DNA of 64,000 nt from positions 664,416 through 728,415 of the forward strand of contig JBBCGY010000001.1 in assembly GCA_037200005.1 (NCBI GenBank). Direction: 5' to 3'. Each line of letters starts with the position of its first letter. Within the stretch, counting starts at the first letter, position 1. The notes under the pieces were generated by a model, which worked only from the letters and a program-made list of their open reading frames with translations, searched no databases and was not told where the DNA came from. Position numbers and translations under genes: made by a program. Positions 37,735 through 50,372 of the stretch are shown here, in pieces. This stretch comes from Alphaproteobacteria bacterium. GTDB taxonomy: Bacteria > Pseudomonadota > Alphaproteobacteria > UBA9219 > RFNS01.

Positions 37735-38154
37735 ATGGCGCGCGTTACTGTCGAAGATTGCATCGTGCAAGTCCCCAACCGTTTCGACCTTGTCATGGTA
37801 GCAGGCGAGCGCGCTCGCGCCATTGCTTCGGGCGCGGTGCTGCAGGTCGATCGCGACCGCGATAAAAATCCGGTGGTTGCTTTGCGCGAGATCGCAGAGC
37901 GGAAGCTCGATCTTGATGGCCTGCAGGAATCCCTGGTCAAGGGCTTGCAGCGGCGCATCGAACCGGATCGTCCGGAAGAAGAAGTGGTCGAACTCATGGT
38001 CGGCGAACAGCAGCAGTGGGTTACCGGCAAGGACGAAGACGAAGCCGCCGAGGAATTCGGTGAATTCGACGAGGAAGCGGAAGGCGAAGTTGAAGCCGCC
38101 AAAGCAGCCGAAGGCGACGCCGCTTTTGAAGACGCCAATACGGACGGCGTATAA
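37735..38154 (+). CDS. rpoZ: RNA polymerase omega subunit
   Basis: Small RNA polymerase subunit that assists assembly and, in many bacteria, forms part of a ppGpp-binding site. The 139 residues begin MARVTVEDC, followed by the conserved V[15 protein letters not shown] and N-P-V-V-A-L-R-E-I. The C-terminal third is a long acidic, low-complexity tail (from about residue 98), common in alphaproteobacterial omega. A RelA/SpoT-domain gene follows 89 bases downstream, where the full-length rsh would usually be expected. Confidence 0.97.
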
Positions 38155-38243: not shown

Positions 38244-39674
38244 ATGTCCGGCCGGGAAGAATCTCACGCTTATCCTTTCCGCTCCGATCCGCTTCACCCT
38301 TACTTTCCCCACGCGGCAATTCTTGAAATTACCGGTCTGAGCGGCGGCGCATCCGTGGGCCGGTTATTTGACGTTTGCCGGGATCAAGGCGCCGATCTTG
38401 AATTGGTGCGCGCCGCGGCGCGTCTTGCTTCTGAAATGTTCGACGCGGGACATCGGAGCGACGCGCTGCCGGTTCATCCGCGGGAGATCGCCATCGGCGT
38501 GGCCGCGCTCGATCTCGATCCCCGCACGCCGACGCGGGCCGAAAGCACGGTTGCCGCGCTGTTCGAGCAAATCGTCGCCCGCAGGCCGGAAACGGCGGAT
38601 GAAATCGGACGGCGGCTTCGCGCGAATCTGACGGCGGCTGCAGGCGGCTTATCCCTTGAACGGTCGGATGCCATCGATACGGCGCTCGATATTGCCGGAC
38701 AGGTTGCGCGCGCGGGGCAACTTTCACGCCAGACTGCCGGAAATGAAGTTTCGCTCCTTCTATTAAGGAATATACAGGAAACGGTTTTGTCCCTGCCGAG
38801 CGAGAGCGTGGCGCCGATCAGAATTGCCGCGACCATGCGGCGTCTCCAAATACTTCCCCGCGCGGGAAGCGCGGAACAAGAGGCTCTTTTGACTGCCGCC
38901 GAGAGGCTCGATATGCCGCTTGCCGCGGATATCGGCTGGTCTCAGGCTCATGATGCGATCCAGGATTCTATCTTCCAGCGGCGCGCCCCGAACGCCCGGC
39001 ATGAAATCATCCAGCAGGTTGAGGCGCGCATGGGATCCGGCTTTTATGAAAATGGAGAGCGGATTATCAGCGAGGGGACCCAGTATATCGAAAAGCTTAT
39101 CAGGGAAGGCGCCGGACCGGATGTCGAAGTGCAGGGACGGCTCAAGCAGCCGGGCGCCATTGCCGGGAAAATGACGCGCAAGGCAATTCCTATCGAAAAA
39201 ATGACCGATTTTCTCGGTTTTCGCATCATCGTGCCCGGCAACGATCCGGCGGATTGCCGCCTGATCGCAGAAATTTTGAAGCAGCGCTTTATTTTTGATG
39301 ACGAGCATACCCGGAACTATTTCAAGAAAGACGATCCCAGGACATCCAAGCCTTACCAGGCGCTGCATCATGTCGGCACGCCATGCGAAACGGCGGATGG
39401 CGTGGAGCCGCCAGCGAGCCTGCGCGGAAAAATGATGGAATTCCAGATCAGGACCGAAACCACGCATTATAACGCCGAAGTCGGCAATGCCTCTCATCGC
39501 GGCTATAAGGAGGATCTCCCTTTGCCGGCTTCGCTGCGCCGGAGGATCGAAAGCATTCGCGAATCTCTGGCGTTGCGGACTGTGGATGCGGGCTTCGAAT
39601 CCGGCATCATGCCCATACGACCCGCTTCGGACGGAGCTGTATCGCGGCCGCCGGCCCTGCGTTACGGATCGTAA
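38244..39674 (+). CDS. divergent RelA/SpoT-domain protein (RSH-like, no active hydrolase)
   Basis: A 476-residue protein. Residues about 276-425 are a RelA/SpoT synthetase-like domain: V-Q-G-R-L-K-Q-P (298-303), T-D-F-L-G-F-R (321-327), Y-Q-A-L-H (371-375), E-F-Q-I-R-T (399-404) and AEVGNASHRGYK (411-422), each aligning with the catalytic blocks of the rsh gene at 48126. The N-terminal 240 residues look like a decayed HD domain: the H-D-x-x-E-D motif is absent, but RLDMPLAADIGWSQAHDAI echoes the RSH linker. TGS and ACT domains are missing. It may make (p)ppGpp or a related nucleotide without degrading it. Directly follows rpoZ. Confidence 0.8.
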   Translation: MSGREESHAYPFRSDPLHPYFPHAAILEITGLSGGASVGRLFDVCRDQGADLELVRAAARLASEMFDAGHRSDALPVHPREIAIGVAALDLDPRTPTRAESTVAALFEQIVARRPETADEIGRRLRANLTAAAGGLSLERSDAIDTALDIAGQVARAGQLSRQTAGNEVSLLLLRNIQETVLSLPSESVAPIRIAATMRRLQILPRAGSAEQEALLTAAERLDMPLAADIGWSQAHDAIQDSIFQRRAPNARHEIIQQVEARMGSGFYENGERIISEGTQYIEKLIREGAGPDVEVQGRLKQPGAIAGKMTRKAIPIEKMTDFLGFRIIVPGNDPADCRLIAEILKQRFIFDDEHTRNYFKKDDPRTSKPYQALHHVGTPCETADGVEPPASLRGKMMEFQIRTETTHYNAEVGNASHRGYKEDLPLPASLRRRIESIRESLALRTVDAGFESGIMPIRPASDGAVSRPPALRYGS

Positions 39675-39741: not shown

Positions 39742-40890
39742 ATGCCGCTTTTTCCGTCTTTGCTTGATTTCGAACGCCCGCTGGCCGGGCGGAGAATATT
39801 TGTCACCGGACATACCGGTTTTACCGGCGGCTGGGCGTGCCTATGGCTGAAATCGATCGGCGCGGAGGTTGCAGGGCTGGCATTGCGGCCTGCGACAAAT
39901 CCTGCCCTTTATGACGCGCTCGGACTAAGTGAAGGCATGCAGTCCGTCATGGGCGATATCTGCGATGCCGGTCTTGTCGCCAAGACGATGGGTGATTTTC
40001 AGCCGGAAATCGTTTTGCATCTGGCGGCGCAGCCTCTGGTGCGCCGATCTTACCGCGAGCCGGTCGCGACGTTTCTCGTCAACGCCATCGGCACGGCCCA
40101 TGTTCTGGAAGCGGCGCGATTGACACCTTCGGTCAAGGCTGCCGTCTGCATCACGACGGATAAGGTCTACAAAAATAATGAAGAGTCGAAATCTTTTCGG
40201 GAGAGCGATCCTTTAGGCGGTAAGGATCCCTACAGCGCCTCCAAGGCTGCGGCGGAAATGGTCATCGACAGCTATGCCGCCTCGTTCGGCAAGACGGACG
40301 GATCGGGTCTTGCGATCGCCACCGCGCGCGGCGGCAATATCATCGGTGGCGGCGACTGGTCCGAAGACCGGCTCATACCCGATTATGTGCGCGCCGTGAT
40401 TAATGACGGCAAATTGACCCTGCGTTATCCGCAAGCGACGCGCCCTTGGCAGCATGTGCTTGCGCTGGTGCAGGGCTATATCATGCTGATGGCGGGATTG
40501 CTGCAAGCGCCGGAGCGCCATGCAAGAGCTTGGAATCTTGGGCCGCTCGATCCGCAGGCTTATAGCGTTCGCCAAGTTCTGGAGATTATCGGACAAATAT
40601 GGAAGGCTCCGAAGCTTGAATTCATGGAAAATCCTCTGGCCGAGGCGCAAACGCTGGCTCTCGACAGTTCCCTTGCTCGCGAGGTTCTGGGATGGAATCC
40701 GGCATGGGACACGCGCCGGATGATTGCCGAAACCGCCGCATGGTATAAGGGTTATTATAAAGACCCGAAAAGCACTCACGATCTTACCCTCGGCCAAATC
40801 GAAACATGGCGCGCCGGTTTAATGCAAGGCGTGCCCGCGCCGGCCGGAATCGCGGATCCTATAGCGGAGGGCGTTCGGAAGATCGGATAG
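39742..40890 (+). CDS. rfbG: CDP-glucose 4,6-dehydratase
   Basis: Converts CDP-glucose to CDP-4-keto-6-deoxyglucose with tightly bound NAD. It has 382 residues: the extended-SDR nucleotide motif V-T-G-H-T-G-F-T-G-G-W near residue 20, the family-typical L-H-L-A-A-Q-P-L-V-R-R-S-Y near 93, T-T-D-K-V-Y-K-N near 136, the catalytic D-P-Y-S-A-S-K near 160, and ARGGNIIGGGDWSEDRLIPD near 195. The matching cytidylyltransferase lies three genes downstream, which fixes the nucleotide as CDP. Confidence 0.94.
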   Translation: MPLFPSLLDFERPLAGRRIFVTGHTGFTGGWACLWLKSIGAEVAGLALRPATNPALYDALGLSEGMQSVMGDICDAGLVAKTMGDFQPEIVLHLAAQPLVRRSYREPVATFLVNAIGTAHVLEAARLTPSVKAAVCITTDKVYKNNEESKSFRESDPLGGKDPYSASKAAAEMVIDSYAASFGKTDGSGLAIATARGGNIIGGGDWSEDRLIPDYVRAVINDGKLTLRYPQATRPWQHVLALVQGYIMLMAGLLQAPERHARAWNLGPLDPQAYSVRQVLEIIGQIWKAPKLEFMENPLAEAQTLALDSSLAREVLGWNPAWDTRRMIAETAAWYKGYYKDPKSTHDLTLGQIETWRAGLMQGVPAPAGIADPIAEGVRKIG

Positions 40891-40925
40891 ATGCGTTAGG
40901 GCCAAGGGACTCCGGGAGGGTCGTC

Positions 40926-41474
40926 ATGAAAATTCATTCTCATGCGCTGAAAGATGCGAAACTTATCGAGTGCAGGGGGTTTTCCGACAACCGCGGGCAA
41001 TTCACGCGCATTTTCTGCAGCGATACGATGATGCAAGAGATGGGGCTGTCCAAGCCGCTTAAGCATATCAATCATTCTTTTACGGCGCGTCAAGGCACGA
41101 TAAGAGGGCTTCGTTATCAAACGGCCCCCGCGCTGGAGGCGAAAGTGGTGCGCTGTATCCGGGGCCGTGTTTTCGACGTGATGATCGATCTGCGCAAAGG
41201 TTCGGAAACTTTCCTCAAGACGCAGACGACGGAAATCTCGCGCGCAAACAATCTCGCGGTCTATGTGCCGGAAGGTTTCGCCCATGGGTTCCAGTCGCTC
41301 GAAGACGAGACCGAGGTTATTTACATGACAACGGCGGCGTATAATAAAGAATGCGAGAGATCGGTGCGCTACAGCGATCCGCTTTTTTCCATTCAATGGC
41401 CGTTGCCGGTCGCGGAAATATCGGAGCATGACGATGCTATTCCCTTTTTAAGCGAGAATTTCGAAGGGATATAG
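40926..41474 (+). CDS. dTDP-4-dehydrorhamnose 3,5-epimerase-like (RfbC/cupin) protein
   Basis: A 182-residue RmlC-type cupin that would epimerise the 4-keto-6-deoxy sugar made by the dehydratase. Family marks are F-S-D-N-R-G-Q-F near residue 20, NHSFTARQGTIRGLRYQ near 53 (catalytic-type histidine region), V-R-C-I-R-G-R-V-F-D-V near 78, and Y-V-P-E-G-F-A-H-G-F near 118 (second histidine). The R-x-L-H-x-Q of true RmlC reads R-L-R-Y-Q, so the active-site histidine there is replaced and the chemistry may be partial, such as C3 or C5 only. ATG 40926 follows GGGAGG. Confidence 0.86.
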   Translation: MKIHSHALKDAKLIECRGFSDNRGQFTRIFCSDTMMQEMGLSKPLKHINHSFTARQGTIRGLRYQTAPALEAKVVRCIRGRVFDVMIDLRKGSETFLKTQTTEISRANNLAVYVPEGFAHGFQSLEDETEVIYMTTAAYNKECERSVRYSDPLFSIQWPLPVAEISEHDDAIPFLSENFEGI

Positions 41475-41484
41475 AGGTAAAGCT

Positions 41485-42408
41485 TTGCGGATTCTTTTGA
41501 CCGGCGCGCGCGGCTTTATCGGCTCGCGATTTCTGCTCTTGCTGAAACGGCAAGGCGTGGAATCTATTCTGGCGCTTGGCCGTCATCCTGTCGATGCGGA
41601 CCGGGGTGTCGAGAATATCATCCTGCCGGATCTCACGCTTGAATCCGTTGGCGCGGCCCTGAAGGATAAGCGGTTCGACGGCGTGGTTCATCTGGCGGCG
41701 GCGGGCGTGCATCCCGCCGACCGCAATCCCGAAACCCTGACGGCGATCAATAGCGTGCTGCCGGGTTCCCTGGTTTCTATCGCCGCGTCCTGTGGCTCCA
41801 GGGCTTTCGTGATGGCGGGAAGCAGCGCCGAATATCGCCAGCTTGCCGAGCCGCGAGGGCTTCGGGAAGACGATCCTCTGGAGACCTCCAAGCTGTACGG
41901 CGCGACGAAAGCGGCGGGGGGTATTCTCGCGCTCGCGCATGGCGCGACGGCGGGAATCGGCGTCGGCGTGCTGCGGCTTTTTAACGCCTTCGGTCCCGGC
42001 GAAGCGCCGCACCGGCTGTTGCCTGCGCTTTTCCGGCATTTGTCGTCCGGTAATCGAGTGCCGCTTTCGCCGGGCGCCCAAATCCGGGATTTCGTGTATG
42101 TGGACGATATTTGCGCGGCGCTATGGGCGGCGCTTGAGGCTTTAGCCGAACAGCGCATGCCCAGCGGCGCGTATAATGTCGCGACGGGGCGGGAATGCAG
42201 CGTGGCCGATTTCTCCCGCCTGGTCGCCAGGAGCCTGGGGATGGGAGAGGAAATGCTAGATTTTGGCGCTATGCCGATGCGGCCCGATGATTTACCCTAT
42301 CTAGTCGGTGATTCCTCCGCTCTTGAGAAGCATTGCGGCTGGAAACCGGCATGGACGCTGGAGCGCGGCATTGACGAGGCCGTTGCGGCATTGAAAAGGA
42401 AAGGCTAA
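41485..42408 (+). CDS. NAD-dependent epimerase/dehydratase family reductase
   Basis: A 307-residue extended SDR: G-A-R-G-F-I-G-S-R-F near residue 8, G-V-V-H-L-A-A-A-G-V near 69, a catalytic triad with S-S-A-E-Y (near 113) and K-L-Y-G-A-T-K (near 136), and L-R-L-F-N-A-F-G-P near 162. The start codon is TTG at 41485, with AGAGG seven bases upstream; no in-frame ATG gives the full nucleotide motif. In context it probably reduces C4 of the CDP-linked keto sugar to finish a 6-deoxyhexose. Confidence 0.86.
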   Translation: MRILLTGARGFIGSRFLLLLKRQGVESILALGRHPVDADRGVENIILPDLTLESVGAALKDKRFDGVVHLAAAGVHPADRNPETLTAINSVLPGSLVSIAASCGSRAFVMAGSSAEYRQLAEPRGLREDDPLETSKLYGATKAAGGILALAHGATAGIGVGVLRLFNAFGPGEAPHRLLPALFRHLSSGNRVPLSPGAQIRDFVYVDDICAALWAALEALAEQRMPSGAYNVATGRECSVADFSRLVARSLGMGEEMLDFGAMPMRPDDLPYLVGDSSALEKHCGWKPAWTLERGIDEAVAALKRKG

Positions 42409-42415
42409 GACGAGT

Positions 42416-43450
42416 ATGCCCATGCCGATGAAAGATATTCTTGCCCCCTATCAAGCCGCTGATCTGCCGTCTCCGGTGTCGAATTCCGTTCCCGCCGAAC
42501 TGCCGCTGATTTCCATAACGATTCCCGTTCTTAACGAAGCGGATAATCTCGACGCGCTATATGACAGGCTGGTCAAGCTGTCGGAAAAGATGGCCGACCG
42601 CTGCCGCCTGGAATTCATTTTTACCGACAACCATTCGGATGACGCGACGTGGCAGAAGCTCGGCGCGCTGGCGGTTGACGATGCCCGTGTCCGGGCGATA
42701 CGTTTTTCAAAGAATTTCGGGTTCCAGCGCTCGATCCTGGCGAATTACTTCCATACGTCCGGCAGCGCGGTCATGCAGATTGATGCCGACCTTCAGGACC
42801 CTCCGGAAATGCTGGAGAAGTTTTTCGACCTTTGGCGGCAGGGCTATCATGTCGTCTATGGGGTGCGCCGCAAGCGCCGGGAGGGGCGCGCCTTAACCGC
42901 CCTTCGGAAAATCGGCTACTGGATTATCGACAAGATCGGCGAATATCCCATTCCCCAGGACGCGGGCGACTTCCGGCTGATCGACCGCAAGGTTATCGAG
43001 GCGCTCAAAAAATACCGTTCGTCCAATCCCTATCTGCGCGGCATGATCGCGGGCATGGGCTTCCGGCAGACCGGCGTGCCCTATGAGCGCAGCGCCCGCG
43101 TGGCGGGACAAAGCAAATTCAGCCTTTTCCAGCTGGTGAGCCTGGGGCTGGCCGGGGTTTTCAATCATTCCGTCGTGCCTTTGCGGCTCGCGACTTACGC
43201 CGGAGCGTTTCTGGTGAGCTTAAGCGTGCTCGGCACGCTTTATTACGTGGTGCTGAAGATGCTGGAGCCCGATTTGCCGCAGGGACTTGCCAGCATTCAT
43301 ATTCTGATGCTGTTCGGGATCGGATTCCAGTCGCTGCTGCTGGGCATTCTCGGCGAGTATCTTCTCCGCATATACGTTATCTTGCGCGCCGAGCCGGTGG
43401 CCATCATCGAGCAAAGCCTCAATTTCCAGCCCGAAGAACTGAAACTATGA
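42416..43450 (+). CDS. family 2 glycosyltransferase with C-terminal membrane segments (DPM1/GtrB-like)
   Basis: A 344-residue GT-A enzyme: L-I-S-I-T-I-P-V-L-N-E-A-D-N-L near residue 30, F-I-F-T-D-N-H-S-D-D near 61, and the D-x-D-equivalent M-Q-I-D-A-D-L-Q-D-P-P-E near 118. R-R-K-R-R-E-G-R and G-D-F-R-L-I-D are typical of GtrB/ArnC. Two membrane segments lie at about 236-260 and 275-315. Such enzymes transfer a sugar to polyprenyl phosphate at the inner membrane. It overlaps the next gene by 4 bases. Confidence 0.92.
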   Translation: MPMPMKDILAPYQAADLPSPVSNSVPAELPLISITIPVLNEADNLDALYDRLVKLSEKMADRCRLEFIFTDNHSDDATWQKLGALAVDDARVRAIRFSKNFGFQRSILANYFHTSGSAVMQIDADLQDPPEMLEKFFDLWRQGYHVVYGVRRKRREGRALTALRKIGYWIIDKIGEYPIPQDAGDFRLIDRKVIEALKKYRSSNPYLRGMIAGMGFRQTGVPYERSARVAGQSKFSLFQLVSLGLAGVFNHSVVPLRLATYAGAFLVSLSVLGTLYYVVLKMLEPDLPQGLASIHILMLFGIGFQSLLLGILGEYLLRIYVILRAEPVAIIEQSLNFQPEELKL

Positions 43451-44220
43451 AAGCAGTCATACTCGCAGGCGGTCTCGGCACGCGCATCGCCGAGGAATCC
43501 GACCAGAGGCCCAAGCCCATGGTCGAGGTCGGCGGCAGGCCGCTGCTGTGGCACATCATGAAAAGCTATAGCCATCACGGCATCAAGGATTTCGTGATCT
43601 GCCTCGGCTATAAAGGTTATGTCATCAAGGAATTCTTTTTTAATTACTATCGCCATACAGCCGACCTCGCGATCGATCTGAAATCCGGCGAGCATCGCGT
43701 CATCAATTCCCAGGCCGAAGACTGGACGGTCACGCTGATCGATACCGGCGAGGAAACCATGACCGGCGGGCGGCTGAAGCGGGCGGCGGCGCATCTCGGC
43801 AAGGAAACTTTCTGCCTGACCTACGGCGACGGGCTGTCCGACATCGACATTACCGCGGAGATCGCGTTCCACAAAAAACACGGTAGATCGGCGACCGTCG
43901 CCGCCGTGCAGCCGCCGGGGCGTTTCGGCGTGCTCAATATCGACCCCAGCAACCATGTGATGAGTTTCGAGGAGAAGCCCAGCAACGAGATCGGCTGGAT
44001 CAATGGCGGATTTTTCGTCCTTGAGCCCGATGTCATCAATTATATCGAGGGCGACCGCACATCCTGGGAGCAGGAACCGCTGGCCAGGCTGGCCAAGGAC
44101 GGCAAGCTCGCGGCATTCCATCATCGCGGCTTCTGGCAGCCCTGCGACACGCTGCGCGACAAGCGCGCGCTCGAAAAACTATGGGAAAAAGGCGATGCGC
44201 CCTGGTGCGTCTGGAAATGA
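43447..44220 (+). CDS. rfbF: glucose-1-phosphate cytidylyltransferase
   Basis: Makes CDP-glucose from CTP and glucose 1-phosphate. The 257 residues show M-K-A-V-I-L-A-G-G-L-G-T-R at the start, Q-R-P-K-P-M-V-E-V-G-G-R-P near 20, the family-specific CLGYKGYVIKEFFFNYYRHT near 55, T-Y-G-D-G-L-S-D near 125, and F-E-E-K-P near 177. It supplies the substrate for RfbG upstream. Start and stop overlap neighbours by 4 bases on both sides. Confidence 0.96.
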   Translation: MKAVILAGGLGTRIAEESDQRPKPMVEVGGRPLLWHIMKSYSHHGIKDFVICLGYKGYVIKEFFFNYYRHTADLAIDLKSGEHRVINSQAEDWTVTLIDTGEETMTGGRLKRAAAHLGKETFCLTYGDGLSDIDITAEIAFHKKHGRSATVAAVQPPGRFGVLNIDPSNHVMSFEEKPSNEIGWINGGFFVLEPDVINYIEGDRTSWEQEPLARLAKDGKLAAFHHRGFWQPCDTLRDKRALEKLWEKGDAPWCVWK

Positions 44221-45243
44221 CCGGCGTTCCAGGAACCGATAAGAGGCGGCGCGGACGCTGGCTTCAGCAATCCGTCGGCATCGCCATCTCCATTGGCTGC
44301 CTTGCTTTTATTTTTTACCGCATAGACCTGAATGAGCTTAAGAGCGCGCTTCTGCAATTCAGGTGGCAGTTTCTGTTTCTCGGCCTGGCGGCGCTGGCTT
44401 TCGACTATGGCATGCGCGTCCGGCGCTGGACGCTGATGCTGCGCGCGGGCGGCGCGGATATCGCGACCGGGCAATGCGCCGCGCCGTTTCTCGGCTCGAT
44501 TGCGCTCAATAATGTGCTGCCGTTCCGCGCCGGGGGACGTCATCCGCGCGCTTGTCTTCCCGCTGGCCATCGGGGTGCGCCGCACGACCGCCACCGCCAG
44601 CATGATGCTGGAGCGGCTGATCGATCTCGTCAGTCTGCTGGTATGCCTCGGCCTTGGCATGGCCTTAAGCCCGGAGCTTCATCTGCCGGACTGGCTGAAG
44701 GAAACGCTTCCGCCGCTTGCCATTCTCGCGGGAATGTCGATAGCGGGCATCGTGATTTTTCATCGCCCCGTCGCTTCGCTGATCGCGCGCCTGTCCCTGA
44801 TGGCGTCCGCCCGCGAGCAGGCTCGTATAGCGAAAGCGCTCGATGTCGGCCAGGAAATCATCGAGGGGTTGGGCGCGATGTCCCATCCGCGCTCGCTGGC
44901 GCAGGTCTTGCTGTTGTCCTTGCTGGTCTGGGCAGGCGAGGCCGGGCTCTTTTACGCCTTGATGGTGGGACTCAATCTCGACGCAGGCCCGGTTGCCGCG
45001 CTGATGATCATGGCGATCACGACCCTGTCGACTTTGGTGCCATCGTCGCCCGGCTATGTCGGCCCTTTCCATCTTGCCGCCTTTTCCGGAATCGCGATGA
45101 TCGGAGGCAGTTCCGCGCAGGGCGCGAGCTTTGCCATCCTGGCGCATTTAAGTTTGTGGGTGCCGACGACGCTGGCGGGCGCGGCGGCGATTCTTACCCA
45201 TCCGCAATTGTTCAAACGCGCGCCCGCTCCCGTTGGCGCCTAA
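44217..45243 (+). CDS. lysylphosphatidylglycerol-synthase-TM/YbhN-like membrane protein (frameshifted)
   Basis: About 341 residues if restored, with six or seven membrane segments. The family pattern F-D-Y-G-M-R-V-R-R-W near residue 62, then F-L-G-S-I-A-L-N-N-V-L-P-F-R-A-G near 95, continues in a second frame as D-V-I-R-A-L-V-F and MLERLIDLVSLLV. The glycine/proline motif S-S-P-G-Y-V-G-P-F near 277 is also present. Removing one G from the GGGGG at 44532-44536 joins both parts. Members in sugar clusters are suspected lipid-linked-sugar flippases, which is unproven. ATG overlaps the rfbF stop. Confidence 0.82.
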
Positions 45244-45264
45244 TTCCAGCATCGTGATAGAAGC

Positions 45265-46600
45265 ATGACATCCCAAACAGACATTCAGAATGTTTTCGAC
45301 GCCGTGATCGTGGGCGCGGGCTTTACCGGCCTTACGGCGGCGCTGCGCCTCGCGCGCGCCGGAAAGAAGGTGCTGGTTCTCGAAAAGGACGCGACGCCGG
45401 GCGGCCTCGCGGGCACGTTCCAGTTCCGCAACGGCGTGACGATCGAGAAATTCTATCACCACTGGTTCAACAACGACGAATATGTGCCGAGCCTCGCCAG
45501 GGAGCTGGGCGTCGAGGATCAGATCGTCACGCTGCCCTCGCGCACCGGGATGTATTTCAACAAGCGCCACTGGAAGCTCTCGACGCCGCTCGATCTGCTG
45601 CGCTTTACGCCGCTGCCTTTCATCGACCGCATCCGCCTCGGCCTGCTGGTGTTCCTGGTGCGCATGGTGAAGGACTGGAAAAACCATCGAGCATCTCAGC
45701 ATCCGCGAATGGCTGGAGCCGCTATGCGGAAAGAATGTCTATAAGGTGGTATGGCAGCCGCTGATCGACGCCAAATTCTCGGTCTACGCCGAAGCCATCA
45801 ACGCCGTCTGGTTTTGGAAGAAGCTGGTTTTGCGCGGCAGCACGCGCGACAAAAAGGGCGGCGAGCAGCTGGCTTATTTCAAAGGCGGCTTCGGGAAACT
45901 GGCCGATGCGATGGCCGAGGAGGTCGTCAAGGCGGGCGGCGAGATACGCTATAACGCGCCGGTGACGGGCGTCGAGGCGCAGGCCCGCCAAATTGTCTCG
46001 CTTGCGACGCCGCAGGGCGCGGCGCGAGGCAGGCAATTCCTGTTCACGCCGGCTTTTCCGATCATTGCCGACATGTTTGAAGGTGTGGCCGATCCGGCAT
46101 GGCTGCAAAAACTGCGCCGGGTGAAATATCTCGGGAACATCTGTCTCGTGCTCCAGTTGAAGAAGAGCCTGTCCGAGACTTACTGGCTGAATGTCAATGA
46201 TCCCGGCTTTCCGTTCGTCGGCGTGATCGAGCACACCAATTTCGATCTGCCGGAAAATTACGGCGGTAACCGGATCGTCTTTATTTCGCGCTATATCGCC
46301 GTCGAGGACCCGATCTGGAATTACGATGACGAAAAATATCTCTCCATGGCGCTCGAGCATCTGCAGCGCATGTTCCCCGATCTCGACCGTTCCTGGATCG
46401 TCGATTTCCATATCTGGCGCGCCGAATATGCCCAGCCAGTGACCGAGCGGAACTACTCGGCCTATGTGCCGGGCCAGGATACGCCCTTCGACAACGTGCA
46501 AATCTATACGATGGCGCAAATCTATCCCGAAGACCGCGGCACCAACTACGCCATCCGCGAGGGCCGCGTGGCGGCGGAGAGCATTTTGAAGCGGCTATGA
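45265..46600 (+). CDS. FAD-dependent amine-oxidase/protoporphyrinogen-oxidase-like protein (frameshifted)
   Basis: About 444 residues if restored. The N-terminus has D-A-V-I-V-G-A-G-F-T-G-L-T-A-A-L near residue 12 (FAD Rossmann motif), then V-L-E-K-D-A-T-P-G-G-L-A-G-T. The second frame resumes as I-E-H-L-S-I-R-E-W-L and contains YFKGGFGKLADAMAEE and a C-terminal N-Y-A-I-R-E-G-R-V-A-A-E-S. Deleting one A of the AAAAA at 45679-45683 joins them. Such oxidoreductases often occur in polysaccharide clusters; possible roles are oxidation or mutase chemistry on a sugar or polyprenol. Confidence 0.8.
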
Positions 46601-47532
46601 AGCGGTTAAAAGACAGCACCATCGGCATCATCGGCGCCGGAGCCATCGGCGGCTTTTATGCGGGCCAATTCCACCGGGTCGCGCCGGATTCGGTGCGCAT
46701 GCTGGCGCGGGGCGAGCGGCTTGCCCGGTTGCGCGGGCATGGGCTTGATGTCAACGGTCGGCACTATGAATTCAAAACCATCGATACGGACTCCGCTGGC
46801 GAAGCTGTCGATCTTTTGATCGTGGCGGTCAAGGACCGGCATCTGGACGATGCGATACAAGAGATGGGATCGGCGCTCGGCCCGGAGACGATCATTCTTT
46901 CCCTTATGAATGGCGTCGATAGCGAGGAAAGAATTCGCGCGGTTTATCCGAGTCATCATGTTCTTTATGGAATCTGCGTCGGGATTAGCGCGGTTCGCGC
47001 CGGACATTCCATTACGGCGCAGATAACCGGCAAGCTTATGTTCGGCGAAGCCAGAAACATTCCTGAGTCCGAACAGGTTGGGTTCGTCAGGGGTCTGTTC
47101 TCGGAGGCGGGCATCGCCCACGAAGTTCCGGAAGATATGATCAAGACGATATGGTGGAAATTCATGGTCAATGTCGGCATCAATCCGCTGTCGGCGATCC
47201 TGCGCGCGCCCTATGGCGTGTTTCAGCGGCCTGGAGAAGCGCGGACGCTGATGCTTGATGGAATGCGCGAAGTCGTCGGCATTGCGAGGGCAAAAGGCAT
47301 TCCTCTTGACGATGCCAATATTGATGAGTGGTGCAGGCTCCTGGATGGCATTTCATCGCCCACAGGCAAAACCTCGATGTATCAGGATGTCGAGGCCGGG
47401 CGGGAGACCGAGATCGGGATGCTGAGCGGCAAAGTACAGGCGCTGGGCCGGGAATCGAATATCCCCACGCCCATCAACGACATGTATTTGAGGCTTATCC
47501 GGTGCCTGGAACCCGCAGGCCGCGATCTCTAG
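46597..47532 (+). CDS. 2-dehydropantoate 2-reductase family protein
   Basis: A 311-residue member of the PanE/ApbA family: G-I-I-G-A-G-A-I-G-G-F-Y near residue 10 (NADPH motif), V-D-L-L-I-V-A-V-K near 71, and M-N-G-V-D-S-E-E near 107. The conserved lysine is in TIWWKFMVNVGINPLSAI near 187, and S-S-P-T-G-K-T-S-M-Y-Q-D near 253 is also conserved. True PanE reduces ketopantoate for pantothenate; placed at the end of a sugar cluster, with a 4-base overlap, this copy may act on another keto substrate. I leave the gene name open for that reason. Confidence 0.85.
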   Translation: MKRLKDSTIGIIGAGAIGGFYAGQFHRVAPDSVRMLARGERLARLRGHGLDVNGRHYEFKTIDTDSAGEAVDLLIVAVKDRHLDDAIQEMGSALGPETIILSLMNGVDSEERIRAVYPSHHVLYGICVGISAVRAGHSITAQITGKLMFGEARNIPESEQVGFVRGLFSEAGIAHEVPEDMIKTIWWKFMVNVGINPLSAILRAPYGVFQRPGEARTLMLDGMREVVGIARAKGIPLDDANIDEWCRLLDGISSPTGKTSMYQDVEAGRETEIGMLSGKVQALGRESNIPTPINDMYLRLIRCLEPAGRDL

Positions 47533-48041
47533 GGTCTGTAGACCAGTTTGATCCGGTTCGGGCGATGGCCGGGTTTGGGCGCGGCGCGGAAGCCGGATTT
47601 TTCCAGAACGCGCAAGGAGGCATGGTTGCCGGGCAGGCATTCCGCGATGATCGTATGATCCGGCAGGGCGTCCGCAAGCATTCCTGTCACGGCGGCTACG
47701 GCCCGGCTCGCGGCTCCCCGGCCCCAGAAAGCGGTTCCGATCCAATAGCCGATTTCGATCTCTTCGGGATCGGCGGTCAGATGGACGCCCAATTGCCCCA
47801 TCAGAACATCGCCGGAAAAAATGCCGTAAACGCGGTCTTGATCGCCCGCGTTTCTTCCGATCCAATCATCGATGACCCGCCGTTCGACCGGATAGGAAAG
47901 GAAAGAGATGATACCGGCAATGGCCGGGTCGTTGGTCAGCGCATGGAGGGCGGGCGCGTTCTGCTCCTGCAGCAGCGCGAGCCGTATAGGGGCCGCCGGA
48001 ATGCTGGCCGGACATTTGAGCAACGGCGCGTCGGGGTTCAT
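47529..48041 (-). CDS. GNAT family N-acetyltransferase (RimJ/RimL-like)
   Basis: A 170-residue acyltransferase. I-R-L-A-L-L-Q-E-Q-N-A-P-A-L near residue 19 opens the fold. I-E-I-G-Y-W-I-G near 95, followed by W-G-R-G-A-A-S-R-A near 107, is motif A, which binds acetyl-CoA. A final N-H-A-S-L-R-V-L-E-K-S-G-F near 146 is the typical RimJ/L motif. Targets in this group include ribosomal proteins, other N-termini and small amines, so the substrate is open. It converges with the PanE-like gene, overlapping it by 4 bases. Confidence 0.88.
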   Translation of the reverse strand: MNPDAPLLKCPASIPAAPIRLALLQEQNAPALHALTNDPAIAGIISFLSYPVERRVIDDWIGRNAGDQDRVYGIFSGDVLMGQLGVHLTADPEEIEIGYWIGTAFWGRGAASRAVAAVTGMLADALPDHTIIAECLPGNHASLRVLEKSGFRAAPKPGHRPNRIKLVYRP

Positions 48042-48125: not shown

Positions 48126-50372
48126 ATGCCTCCTGACGACCACACCGCCGCGCCGCCTGCCGTAACGGAAGAGGTGCATCCCGCCGCCAAGCCGAAGCGT
48201 CCCGCGCGCTTGATGCGGCAGTATGAGCTGGTCGAGCGGGTCAAGGCTTACGACCCGAAAATCGACGAGGATTTGCTCAACCGCGCTTACGTCTTCGCGA
48301 TGAAGGCGCATGGCACGCAGACCAGGGCTTCGGGCGATCCGTATTTCTCCCACCCGCTCGAAGTCGCGGGCATCCTCACCGACATGAAGATGGACACGGC
48401 GACGATCGCCACCGCGCTGCTCCACGACACGGTGGAAGACACGCTGGCCTCGCTCGAAGAAATCCAGAAAAAATTCGGCCCCGAGATCGCCAAGCTGGTC
48501 GACGGCGTGACCAAGCTGTCGCGCATCGAGTTCCAGAACGATCAGGCCAAGCAGGCGGAGAATTTCCGCAAGCTGGTTCTCGCGATGTCGGAAGATATCC
48601 GCGTGCTGCTGGTCAAGCTTGCCGACCGGCTGCACAATATGCGGACGCTGCATCATCTGCCCGATCCGGAAAAGCGCCGCCGCATCGCGCGCGAGACGAT
48701 GGAAATCTACGCGCCGCTCGCCGAGCGCATCGGCATCGAGCAGATGCAGGACGAGCTCGAGGATCTGGCCTTCGCCGAACTGAACACCGACGCCCGCGCC
48801 GGGATCATCGCACGGCTCGGCTATCTGCGCAGCGAGGGCGGCGACGTCGTCAGCAAGATCATCGCCGAACTGAAATCGGCGCTCAAGCAGGGCGGCATCC
48901 AGGCGTCGATCTCCGGGCGCGAGAAAACCCCTTACTCGATCTGGCGCAAGATGCAGCGCAAGAACGTCACCTTCGAGCAGCTTTCCGACATCATGGCGTT
49001 CCGCGTCGTCGTCGAGAATGTCGAGCAGTGCTATCAGTCGCTGGGCGTGATCCACAGCCGCTATCCGGTGGTGCCGGGGCGTTTCAAGGATTATATCTCG
49101 ACGCCCAAGCCCAACCATTATCAAAGCCTGCATACCAGCATCATCGGCCCCGAGCGCCAGCGCATCGAGGTGCAGATCAGGACGCAGCAGATGCATGAGG
49201 TCGCCGAACTCGGCGTCGCCGCCCACTGGGCCTACAAATCCGACGCCCAGCGCAACGAAGGCAAGCAGTATCGCTGGCTGCGCGAGCTGGTCGATATTCT
49301 CGAACAGGCGCAGAAGCCCGAAGAATTTCTCGAACACACCAAGCTCGAACTGTTCCGCGACCAGGTTTTCTGCTTCTCGCCCAAGGGCGATTTGATCGCG
49401 CTGCCGCGCGGCGCGACGCCGGTCGATTTCGCCTATGCGGTGCATAGCCAGCTCGGCGATACCTGCGTCGGGTCCAAGGTCAATGGCCGCATGGTGCCGC
49501 TGCGCACCGCGCTGCATAACGGCGATCAGGTCGATATCGTCACGCAAAAGGGTTCATTGCCGTCGCCGCAATGGGAGCGGTTCGTCGTCACCGGCAAGGC
49601 GCGGGCGCGGATCAGGAAATTCGTCCGTACCCAGCAGCGCACGGAATATGTCGCGCTCGGCAAGGGCATGATCGAGCGCGCCTTCAAGCAGGAGGGGCTG
49701 GATTTCAGCGAAAAGCTGCTCGATCCCATTCTCAAGAAATTCCAGGCGCAGACCGTCGAAGATCTCTACGCCAATGTCGGCGCGTCGCTGCAGCCGGTGC
49801 GCGACATTCTGACTTCGGCAGTGCCGGGCCACAAGGCGAAACAGCAGGCCGAGCGCGCCGATCCCATCAGGGTCGCGTCGCGCACGAAATGGAAGGATGC
49901 CAGAGCCCATGGCGACCAGCCGCTGACATTGCGCGGCCTGATCCCCGGCATGGCGGTGCATTATGCGGGCTGCTGCCATCCGATACCGGGCGATCCCATC
50001 GTCGGCATCGTCACCACCGGCAAGGGCGTGACGGTTCATACCTCCGACTGCGAGACATTGGAAAGCTTCGCGGGCATGCCGGAACGTTGGATCGACGTGG
50101 CGTGGGACGACGGTCACGGCAAGGAAGCGCAGATGGTCGGGCGGCTCACGGTGGTGATCTTCAACCAGCCGAACAGCCTGAGCGCGATGACCACGATCAT
50201 CGGCAAGGCGGGCGGCAATATCATCAATTTCAAGATCGTCAACCGCACGGTGGATTTCTTCGACATCCTGGTCGATGTCGAAGTGCGCGACGTGAAGCAC
50301 CTGACGCTCATCATCGCGGCCTTGCGCGCCAGCGCGGCGATCAGTTCGGTGGATCGGGCTAAGGGACGCTAA
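48126..50372 (+). CDS. rsh: bifunctional (p)ppGpp synthetase/hydrolase (Rel/SpoT homologue)
   Basis: Makes and degrades the alarmone (p)ppGpp. The 748 residues hold, in order: the HD hydrolase domain (S-H-P-L-E-V-A near 75, [10 protein letters not shown] near 96), the synthetase domain ([10 protein letters not shown] near 261, S-D-I-M-A-F-R near 287, Y-Q-S-L-H near 330, E-V-Q-I-R-T near 345), a TGS domain (from about 408), and a C-terminal ACT domain (about 670-745). All catalytic blocks are intact. It lies 10 kb from rpoZ, separated from it by the CDP-sugar cluster. Confidence 0.97.

Follow-up and report, generated by a model that had tools for sequence, protein, structure and literature searches.

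A divergent RelA/SpoT paralog between rpoZ and rsh in an alphaproteobacterial order is a probable hydrolase-dead, synthetase-only enzyme

Why does an alphaproteobacterial genome with a complete bifunctional Rsh carry a second RelA/SpoT-type gene directly behind rpoZ? In the 64,000-nucleotide stretch of DNA that we analyzed (the window), an open reading frame of 476 amino acids without stops (38,244–39,674, plus strand) follows rpoZ, which encodes the omega subunit (37,735–38,154, plus strand), at a distance of 90 nt, an operon-like position. A sequence-only reading had described its product as a second RelA/SpoT-fold protein, and the domain evidence bears this out: Pfam RelA_SpoT (PF04607) matches residues 298–424 with an E-value of 6.4e-18 and 65.5 bits, against a curated cut-off of 27, which places the protein in the RSH superfamily by its SYNTH domain. 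TIGR00691 spans residues 224–424, and PDB Rel/RelA sequences align to residues 165–425. The canonical bifunctional rsh, recognized by its HD, SYNTH, TGS, AH/RIS, and ACT domain matches, lies downstream on the same strand (48,126–50,372). Besides paralog and rsh, the source genome has no RelA_SpoT gene, and the sole HD_4 domain found in it is that of Rsh.

The TGS and ACT domains had been described as gone from the paralog, and they are truly absent. Pfam models for HD, TGS, and ACT find no match in it, and no C-terminus is hidden behind a frameshift, as nothing in the window corresponds to the C-terminal half of a relative in genome G001. The TGS, helical/RIS, and ACT domains of bifunctional Rel[HS] enzymes are accordingly missing, and the next gene begins 68 nt past the stop codon. 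The window protein is the most truncated copy of its family, relatives having intact frames of 603–730 amino acids.

An AF2 model of the window paralog has a mean pLDDT of 79.6, with core blocks above 90, residues 41–410 mostly well above the mean, and low confidence at both ends. The comparison with Rel synthetase structures that had been proposed as a check returned a two-domain Rel fold, residues 34–420 superimposing on Bacillus subtilis Rel with a VIA-align Z-score of 27.8 (r.m.s.d. is 4.7 over 329 aligned positions), an outcome that is not wholly independent and was favored by the model input, since Rsh was among its 28 aligned sequences. The allele of a second genome (G008) was also modeled as a two-domain Rel (Z-score 26.1). 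Residues 46–249 match a small alarmone hydrolase (Z-score 14.5) and the MESH1 fold, and the second half matches RelQ (Z-score 12.9), CapRel (Z-score 10.3), and the RelP fold. Matches to PDE and polymerase folds were set aside as generic HD and nucleotidyltransferase folds.

The hydrolase half (residues about 34–250; 38,343–38,993, plus strand) is by its predicted fold, which matches the small alarmone hydrolases, a degenerate HD domain and no new domain. Its HD residues are replaced: the Rsh motif LLHDTVEDT reads ALFEQIVAR in the paralog, and a second Rsh stretch of 11 residues is represented by RIAATMRRLQI. In the alignment to RelSeq, His-77 is exchanged for Glu, Asp-78 for Gln, Glu-81 for Ala, Asp-82 for Arg, Asp-144 for Ala, and Asn-148 for Arg. 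The only HD residue left is the first histidine, equivalent to His-53 and embedded in a VHP sequence, so that the HD motif of bifunctional Rel[HS] enzymes, which serves Mn2+ binding and hydrolysis (His-53, His-77, Asp-78, Glu-81, Asp-82, and Asp-144), is not found. This agrees with the earlier claim of a dead hydrolase half. His-77 is retained in none of the ten family members described below, each of which has lost the hydrolase site.

In the SYNTH (pyrophosphokinase) half (residues about 250–424; 38,991–39,515, plus strand), every synthetase landmark named beforehand is present: Gly-298-Arg-299-Leu-Lys-301, Asp-322-Phe-Leu-Gly-Phe-Arg-327, Tyr-371-Gln-Ala-Leu-His-375, Glu-399-Phe-Gln-401-Ile-Arg, and Ala-Ser-His-418-Arg. 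In RelSeq, Arg-241 and Arg-269 sandwich ATP, Asp-264 and Glu-323 are catalytic, Tyr-308 stacks the guanine, and Asn-306 is a key residue of the guanine pocket (PMC7983052). The ATP-sandwiching and catalytic residues correspond to Arg-299, Arg-327, Asp-322, and Glu-399 of the window paralog. A putative ATP/Mg2+ donor site, formed by Arg-299, Lys-301, Lys-309, Asp-322, and Arg-327 (RelSeq Arg-241, Lys-243, Lys-251, Asp-264, and Arg-269; 39,135–39,230, plus strand), is kept in at least nine of the ten members. A putative acceptor loop and second Mg2+ ligand comprise Tyr-371, His-375, Glu-399, Gln-401, His-418, and Lys-422 (39,354–39,509, plus strand), which align to RelSeq Tyr-308, His-312, Glu-323, Gln-325, His-342, and Lys-346, the last two approximately. 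The spacing R-x-K-x3-(S/A)-x3-K-x2-R is that of the FaRel2 ATP site (Arg-64, Lys-66, Ser-70, Lys-74, and Arg-77). On the acceptor side, the Asn-306 position is not occupied by asparagine, Lys-297 is replaced by Arg, and Ser-247 by Ala. The position of the RXKD/EXDD motif, which excerpts of PMC3153485 tie to GTP or GDP preference (EXDD to GDP), reads HTRN and thus conforms to neither form.

Paralogs of this hydrolase-dead type occur in 10 of 33 genomes of the order. Where rpoZ and rsh lie on the same contig (25 genomes), 8 have a co-oriented RSH paralog between them (G000, G001, G003, G005, G007, G008, G011, and G025), always preceded by rpoZ on the same strand; in the other 17 the slot is a short gap of about 160–610 nt. 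The relative in G001 (730 amino acids, 40–42% identity to the window paralog) and that in G003 (639 amino acids, about 30%) lie directly upstream of rsh, and some slot copies end only 6–33 nt before it. The other two members, from G013 and G019, genomes that share a genus, are highly diverged as well and lie in a second slot, between holA and purN (L114, 3,485–5,296; L115, 2,749–4,701). PF04607 matches all 10 members at an E-value of 0.01 or better, 3 of them below its cut-off, and TGS gives a weak match in one relative. A single clade for all ten is not rejected by an AU test (p = 0.207) on a tree with very long branches.

Searches with a ten-member profile returned no further copy in the 33 genomes of the order; no further copy of this type (f1) was found in 385 genomes of the class, nor in 398 genomes of the phylum with the N-terminal profile of the type. 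The family is hypervariable and, within the range searched, confined to one order. Second matches in four genomes of the class were unconvincing or ambiguous: a fragment pair in G181, a 366-residue frame in G291, a weak match in G356, and, in G249, a 462-residue frame on a 6.3-kb contig. A phage or plasmid origin was considered and dropped, as tblastn against phage and plasmid collections gave, among the matches listed, only RSH-type proteins of less than 30% identity, many of them unannotated.

The interval between rpoZ and rsh varies in cargo among genomes, holding polysaccharide genes in the window (39,742–48,041) and marC in G007 and G008. Because of this variation it may be an insertion hotspot. 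In the window, paralog and rsh lie about 8 kb apart, with polysaccharide genes, several others, and a GNAT acetyltransferase gene in between. By domain matches and slot comparison, the surface-polysaccharide and neighboring genes (39,742–47,532, plus strand) comprise a sugar dehydratase, rfbC, an epimerase, a GT2 glycosyltransferase, a nucleotidyltransferase, a membrane protein, the halves of an FAD oxidoreductase, and a reductase-like frame; none of these occupies the slot of G001 or G003. The FAD-dependent oxidoreductase (45,265–46,600) is split into frames at 45,265–45,744 and 45,746–46,600 with complementary Pfam Amino_oxidase matches (1–119 and 151–442), which points to a frameshift from sequencing error or to a pseudogene. 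The multi-pass membrane protein of the block (44,181–45,257 and 44,500–45,243) seems to change frame near 44,500, possibly a second frameshift. In G005, an additional 459-residue frame without a Pfam match lies between paralog and rsh (L067, 6,199–7,578).

The eight slot copies share on average only 28% identity in SYNTH (22–43%) and 18% in the pseudo-HD region, whereas the Rsh proteins of the order are 78% identical in both HD and SYNTH; family members and these Rsh proteins share on average 21% (HD) and 34% (SYNTH). This divergence is selective. Among the columns invariant in Rsh, at least nine of the ten members keep 13 of 51 in SYNTH, mostly ATP, Mg2+, or catalytic residues, and 1 of 57 in HD (Fisher p = 2.6e-4, indicative only, since the sequences are related). 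Thirteen columns are kept in at least seven of the eight slot copies, all of them invariant or nearly so in Rsh. In RelSeq numbering, Arg-241, Lys-243, Asp-264, Tyr-308, His-342, and Lys-346 are retained in all ten members and Lys-251, Arg-269, Glu-323, and His-312 in nine, and on the acceptor side Lys-297 is kept in six and Asn-306 in five. Between the window paralog and that of G001, dN is 0.64 and dS 1.87, the latter near saturation, giving a dN/dS of about 0.34; for Rsh of the same two genomes, dN is 0.12. We take these values to indicate a fast-evolving protein whose chemistry is under constraint, rather than simple decay.

Two genomes of one genus, G007 and G008, suggest that slot copies may also be exchanged. 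Their Rsh and MarC proteins are 97.2 and 96.6% identical, and the DNA flanking the paralog, which lies between rpoZ and marC (L074 and L075), is 82–88% identical. This similarity breaks off 7 nt short of the start codon of the paralog and resumes 15 nt after the stop. The paralogs themselves have no DNA similarity and 23% amino acid identity in a forced alignment; with blastp, the G007 protein scores 20 bits against that of G008 and 60–65 bits against those of G005 and G013. Since orthologs that had split as recently as the flanks should be nearest relatives, the slot looks like a case in which one allele was replaced by another through its flanks, and this is the simplest reading. Rapid divergence in place is less likely. 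Neutral change alone, at a dS of about 0.7, could lower identity almost to this level, but the catalytic residues would then not be expected to survive; the AU test against a G007/G008 pairing gives only p = 0.06.

The combination of a dead HD domain with a SYNTH domain is already known, from RelA and, by description, from rickRel[hS] and partly RshB. RelA[hS] of beta- and gammaproteobacteria is likewise a descendant of long RSHs in which HD has become a pseudo-domain and SYNTH is monofunctional, and it coexists with a hydrolase-competent RSH; Escherichia coli RelA, our control as a known hydrolase-dead synthetase, has the same dead HD and intact SYNTH pattern as the window paralog. Unlike the window paralog, RelA retains every domain from TGS to ACT, as well as the guanine pocket, and is encoded at another place in the genome; its ribosome-responsive C-terminal domains and EXDD motif have no equivalent in the window copy. 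The family described here is far more divergent, has a lost or altered C-terminus, and occurs in an order of alphaproteobacteria, where most copies occupy the rpoZ–rsh slot. In a SYNTH tree with very long branches, E. coli RelA groups with SpoT (support 90/79), apart from the paralogs. The likely parent of the family is the alphaproteobacterial bifunctional Rel/Rsh, with which it shares the two-domain N-terminal fold and the chromosomal neighborhood, but not the HD motif.

Second, more divergent Rel copies in one genome are also known as RshA–RshD (Atkinson 2011, PMC3153485); according to excerpts of that survey they come from other phyla or classes, the HD of RshB has diverged too, and the excerpts report no allele replacement and treat long RSHs as conserved core genes with a low propensity for horizontal transfer. 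The survey also describes rickRel[hS], a group of Rickettsiales and thus alphaproteobacterial, as a synthetase whose HD is very divergent. The small synthetases and their toxic relatives (RelP, RelQ, FaRel2, and CapRel) share the SYNTH core and its catalytic residues, but are without the HD-type N-terminal domain that the window paralog has, and toxSAS enzymes are neutralized by antitoxins or a pseudo-zinc-finger domain (pZFD); no such neutralizer is seen for the window paralog, and no partner gene is common to the slots. What appears new is the restriction of the family to one order, its divergence, and the apparent exchange at the rpoZ–rsh slot; we found no earlier report of the rpoZ–rsh paralog family in the open-access literature searched, a result that proves little.

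On balance, with somewhat better than even confidence, we read the window paralog as a hydrolase-dead, monofunctional ATP-dependent pyrophosphokinase working beside Rsh and most likely making (p)ppGpp. Of the three options raised at the outset (a synthetase-only enzyme, a maker of a different product, an inactive modulator), the synthetase-only option is the best supported, as ten highly divergent members retain the donor and Mg2+ sites and have all lost the hydrolase site. We infer activity, product, and control as follows. ATP would be bound between Arg-299 and Arg-327, with Mg2+ held by Asp-322 and Glu-399 and the acceptor base stacked on Tyr-371; the pyrophosphate would be transferred to a 3'-OH group, probably that of GDP or GTP, to give (p)ppGpp, and the bifunctional Rsh, whose HD_4 hydrolase domain is the single one detected in the genome, would remove the product. 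As TGS, AH/RIS, and ACT are absent, sensing of amino acid starvation through ribosome and tRNA is not expected of the window copy, which resembles truncated N-terminal fragments of RelA; such fragments are constitutively active. The changes at Asn-306, Lys-297, and Ser-247 and the HTRN sequence argue against this reading, as does the missing C-terminal half, with which the window copy may be decaying. The omega protein begins MARVTVEDC in the source genome (37,735–37,760), with similar starts in all eight slot-carrying genomes, and contains the MAR motif linked in other bacteria to a ppGpp site of RNA polymerase; the link between paralog and this site that was raised beforehand is one of gene neighborhood.

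A different product, as in the second option, keeps some appeal although it ranks below the synthetase-only option: another acceptor is possible since half of the members, the window copy without Asn-306 among them, have an altered guanine pocket. The paralog would then be a pyrophosphokinase acting on the tRNA 3'-CCA, as FaRel2 and CapRel do, or on ATP/ADP, as FaRel and Tas1 do, and would act, under control in cis, to arrest growth or to counter phage, its sensor and inhibitor being the fast-evolving pseudo-HD and C-terminus. The nearly constant donor site beside a variable acceptor pocket would suit such an enzyme, and the family recalls defense genes in its patchy occurrence, its extreme divergence, and the apparent replacement of genes at a fixed slot. 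We nevertheless regard it as unlikely, given the absence of a common partner gene, the few nucleotides between some copies and rsh, a sequence and fold nearer to long Rel than to SAS/toxSAS (Z-scores 27.8 versus 10.3 for CapRel), and the location of the window copy outside any defense-gene neighborhood. PADLOC assigns PDC-S33 to seven of ten members, a match that is uninformative because ordinary Rsh matches it more strongly.

More improbable is a pseudo-RSH without catalysis of its own, whose role would be to modulate Rsh, e.g. by hetero-oligomerizing with it or titrating it. Co-orientation with rsh, the dead HD, and the altered acceptor pocket are compatible with such a role, but a structural modulator would have no need of the six residues retained in every member or of Glu-323, and conservation would be expected at interaction surfaces; the selective retention of catalytic residues disfavors the inactive option. 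Slightly less likely still is a functionless, decaying tandem duplicate of rsh, of which the window copy in particular would be a truncated remnant. The missing C-terminal half, fast evolution, several relatives without the paralog, and two apparently frameshifted neighboring genes would fit decay, against which stand the uninterrupted frames in window and relatives, the kept catalytic columns, and the dN/dS ratio.

Beyond the synthetase-only reading of the window copy, we consider it conceivable, though rather doubtful, that the hydrolase-dead long RSHs of the order form a hypervariable, exchangeable set, with a constant donor site, a diversifying acceptor pocket, pseudo-HD, and C-terminus, and genes swapped at the rpoZ–rsh slot because their products or triggers (e.g. 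phage) differ, the neighboring Rsh serving as safety hydrolase. Taken together, synthetase chemistry is kept in a long-RSH paralog that adjoins the core copy but evolves as accessory genes do and, to all appearance, is also replaced as they are. If active, these proteins would add a further case, besides RelA and SpoT, in which synthesis and hydrolysis were split after duplication, and would amount to a natural set of synthetase-only enzymes that agree in the donor site and differ in the acceptor site, from which the determinants of alarmone specificity could be learned.
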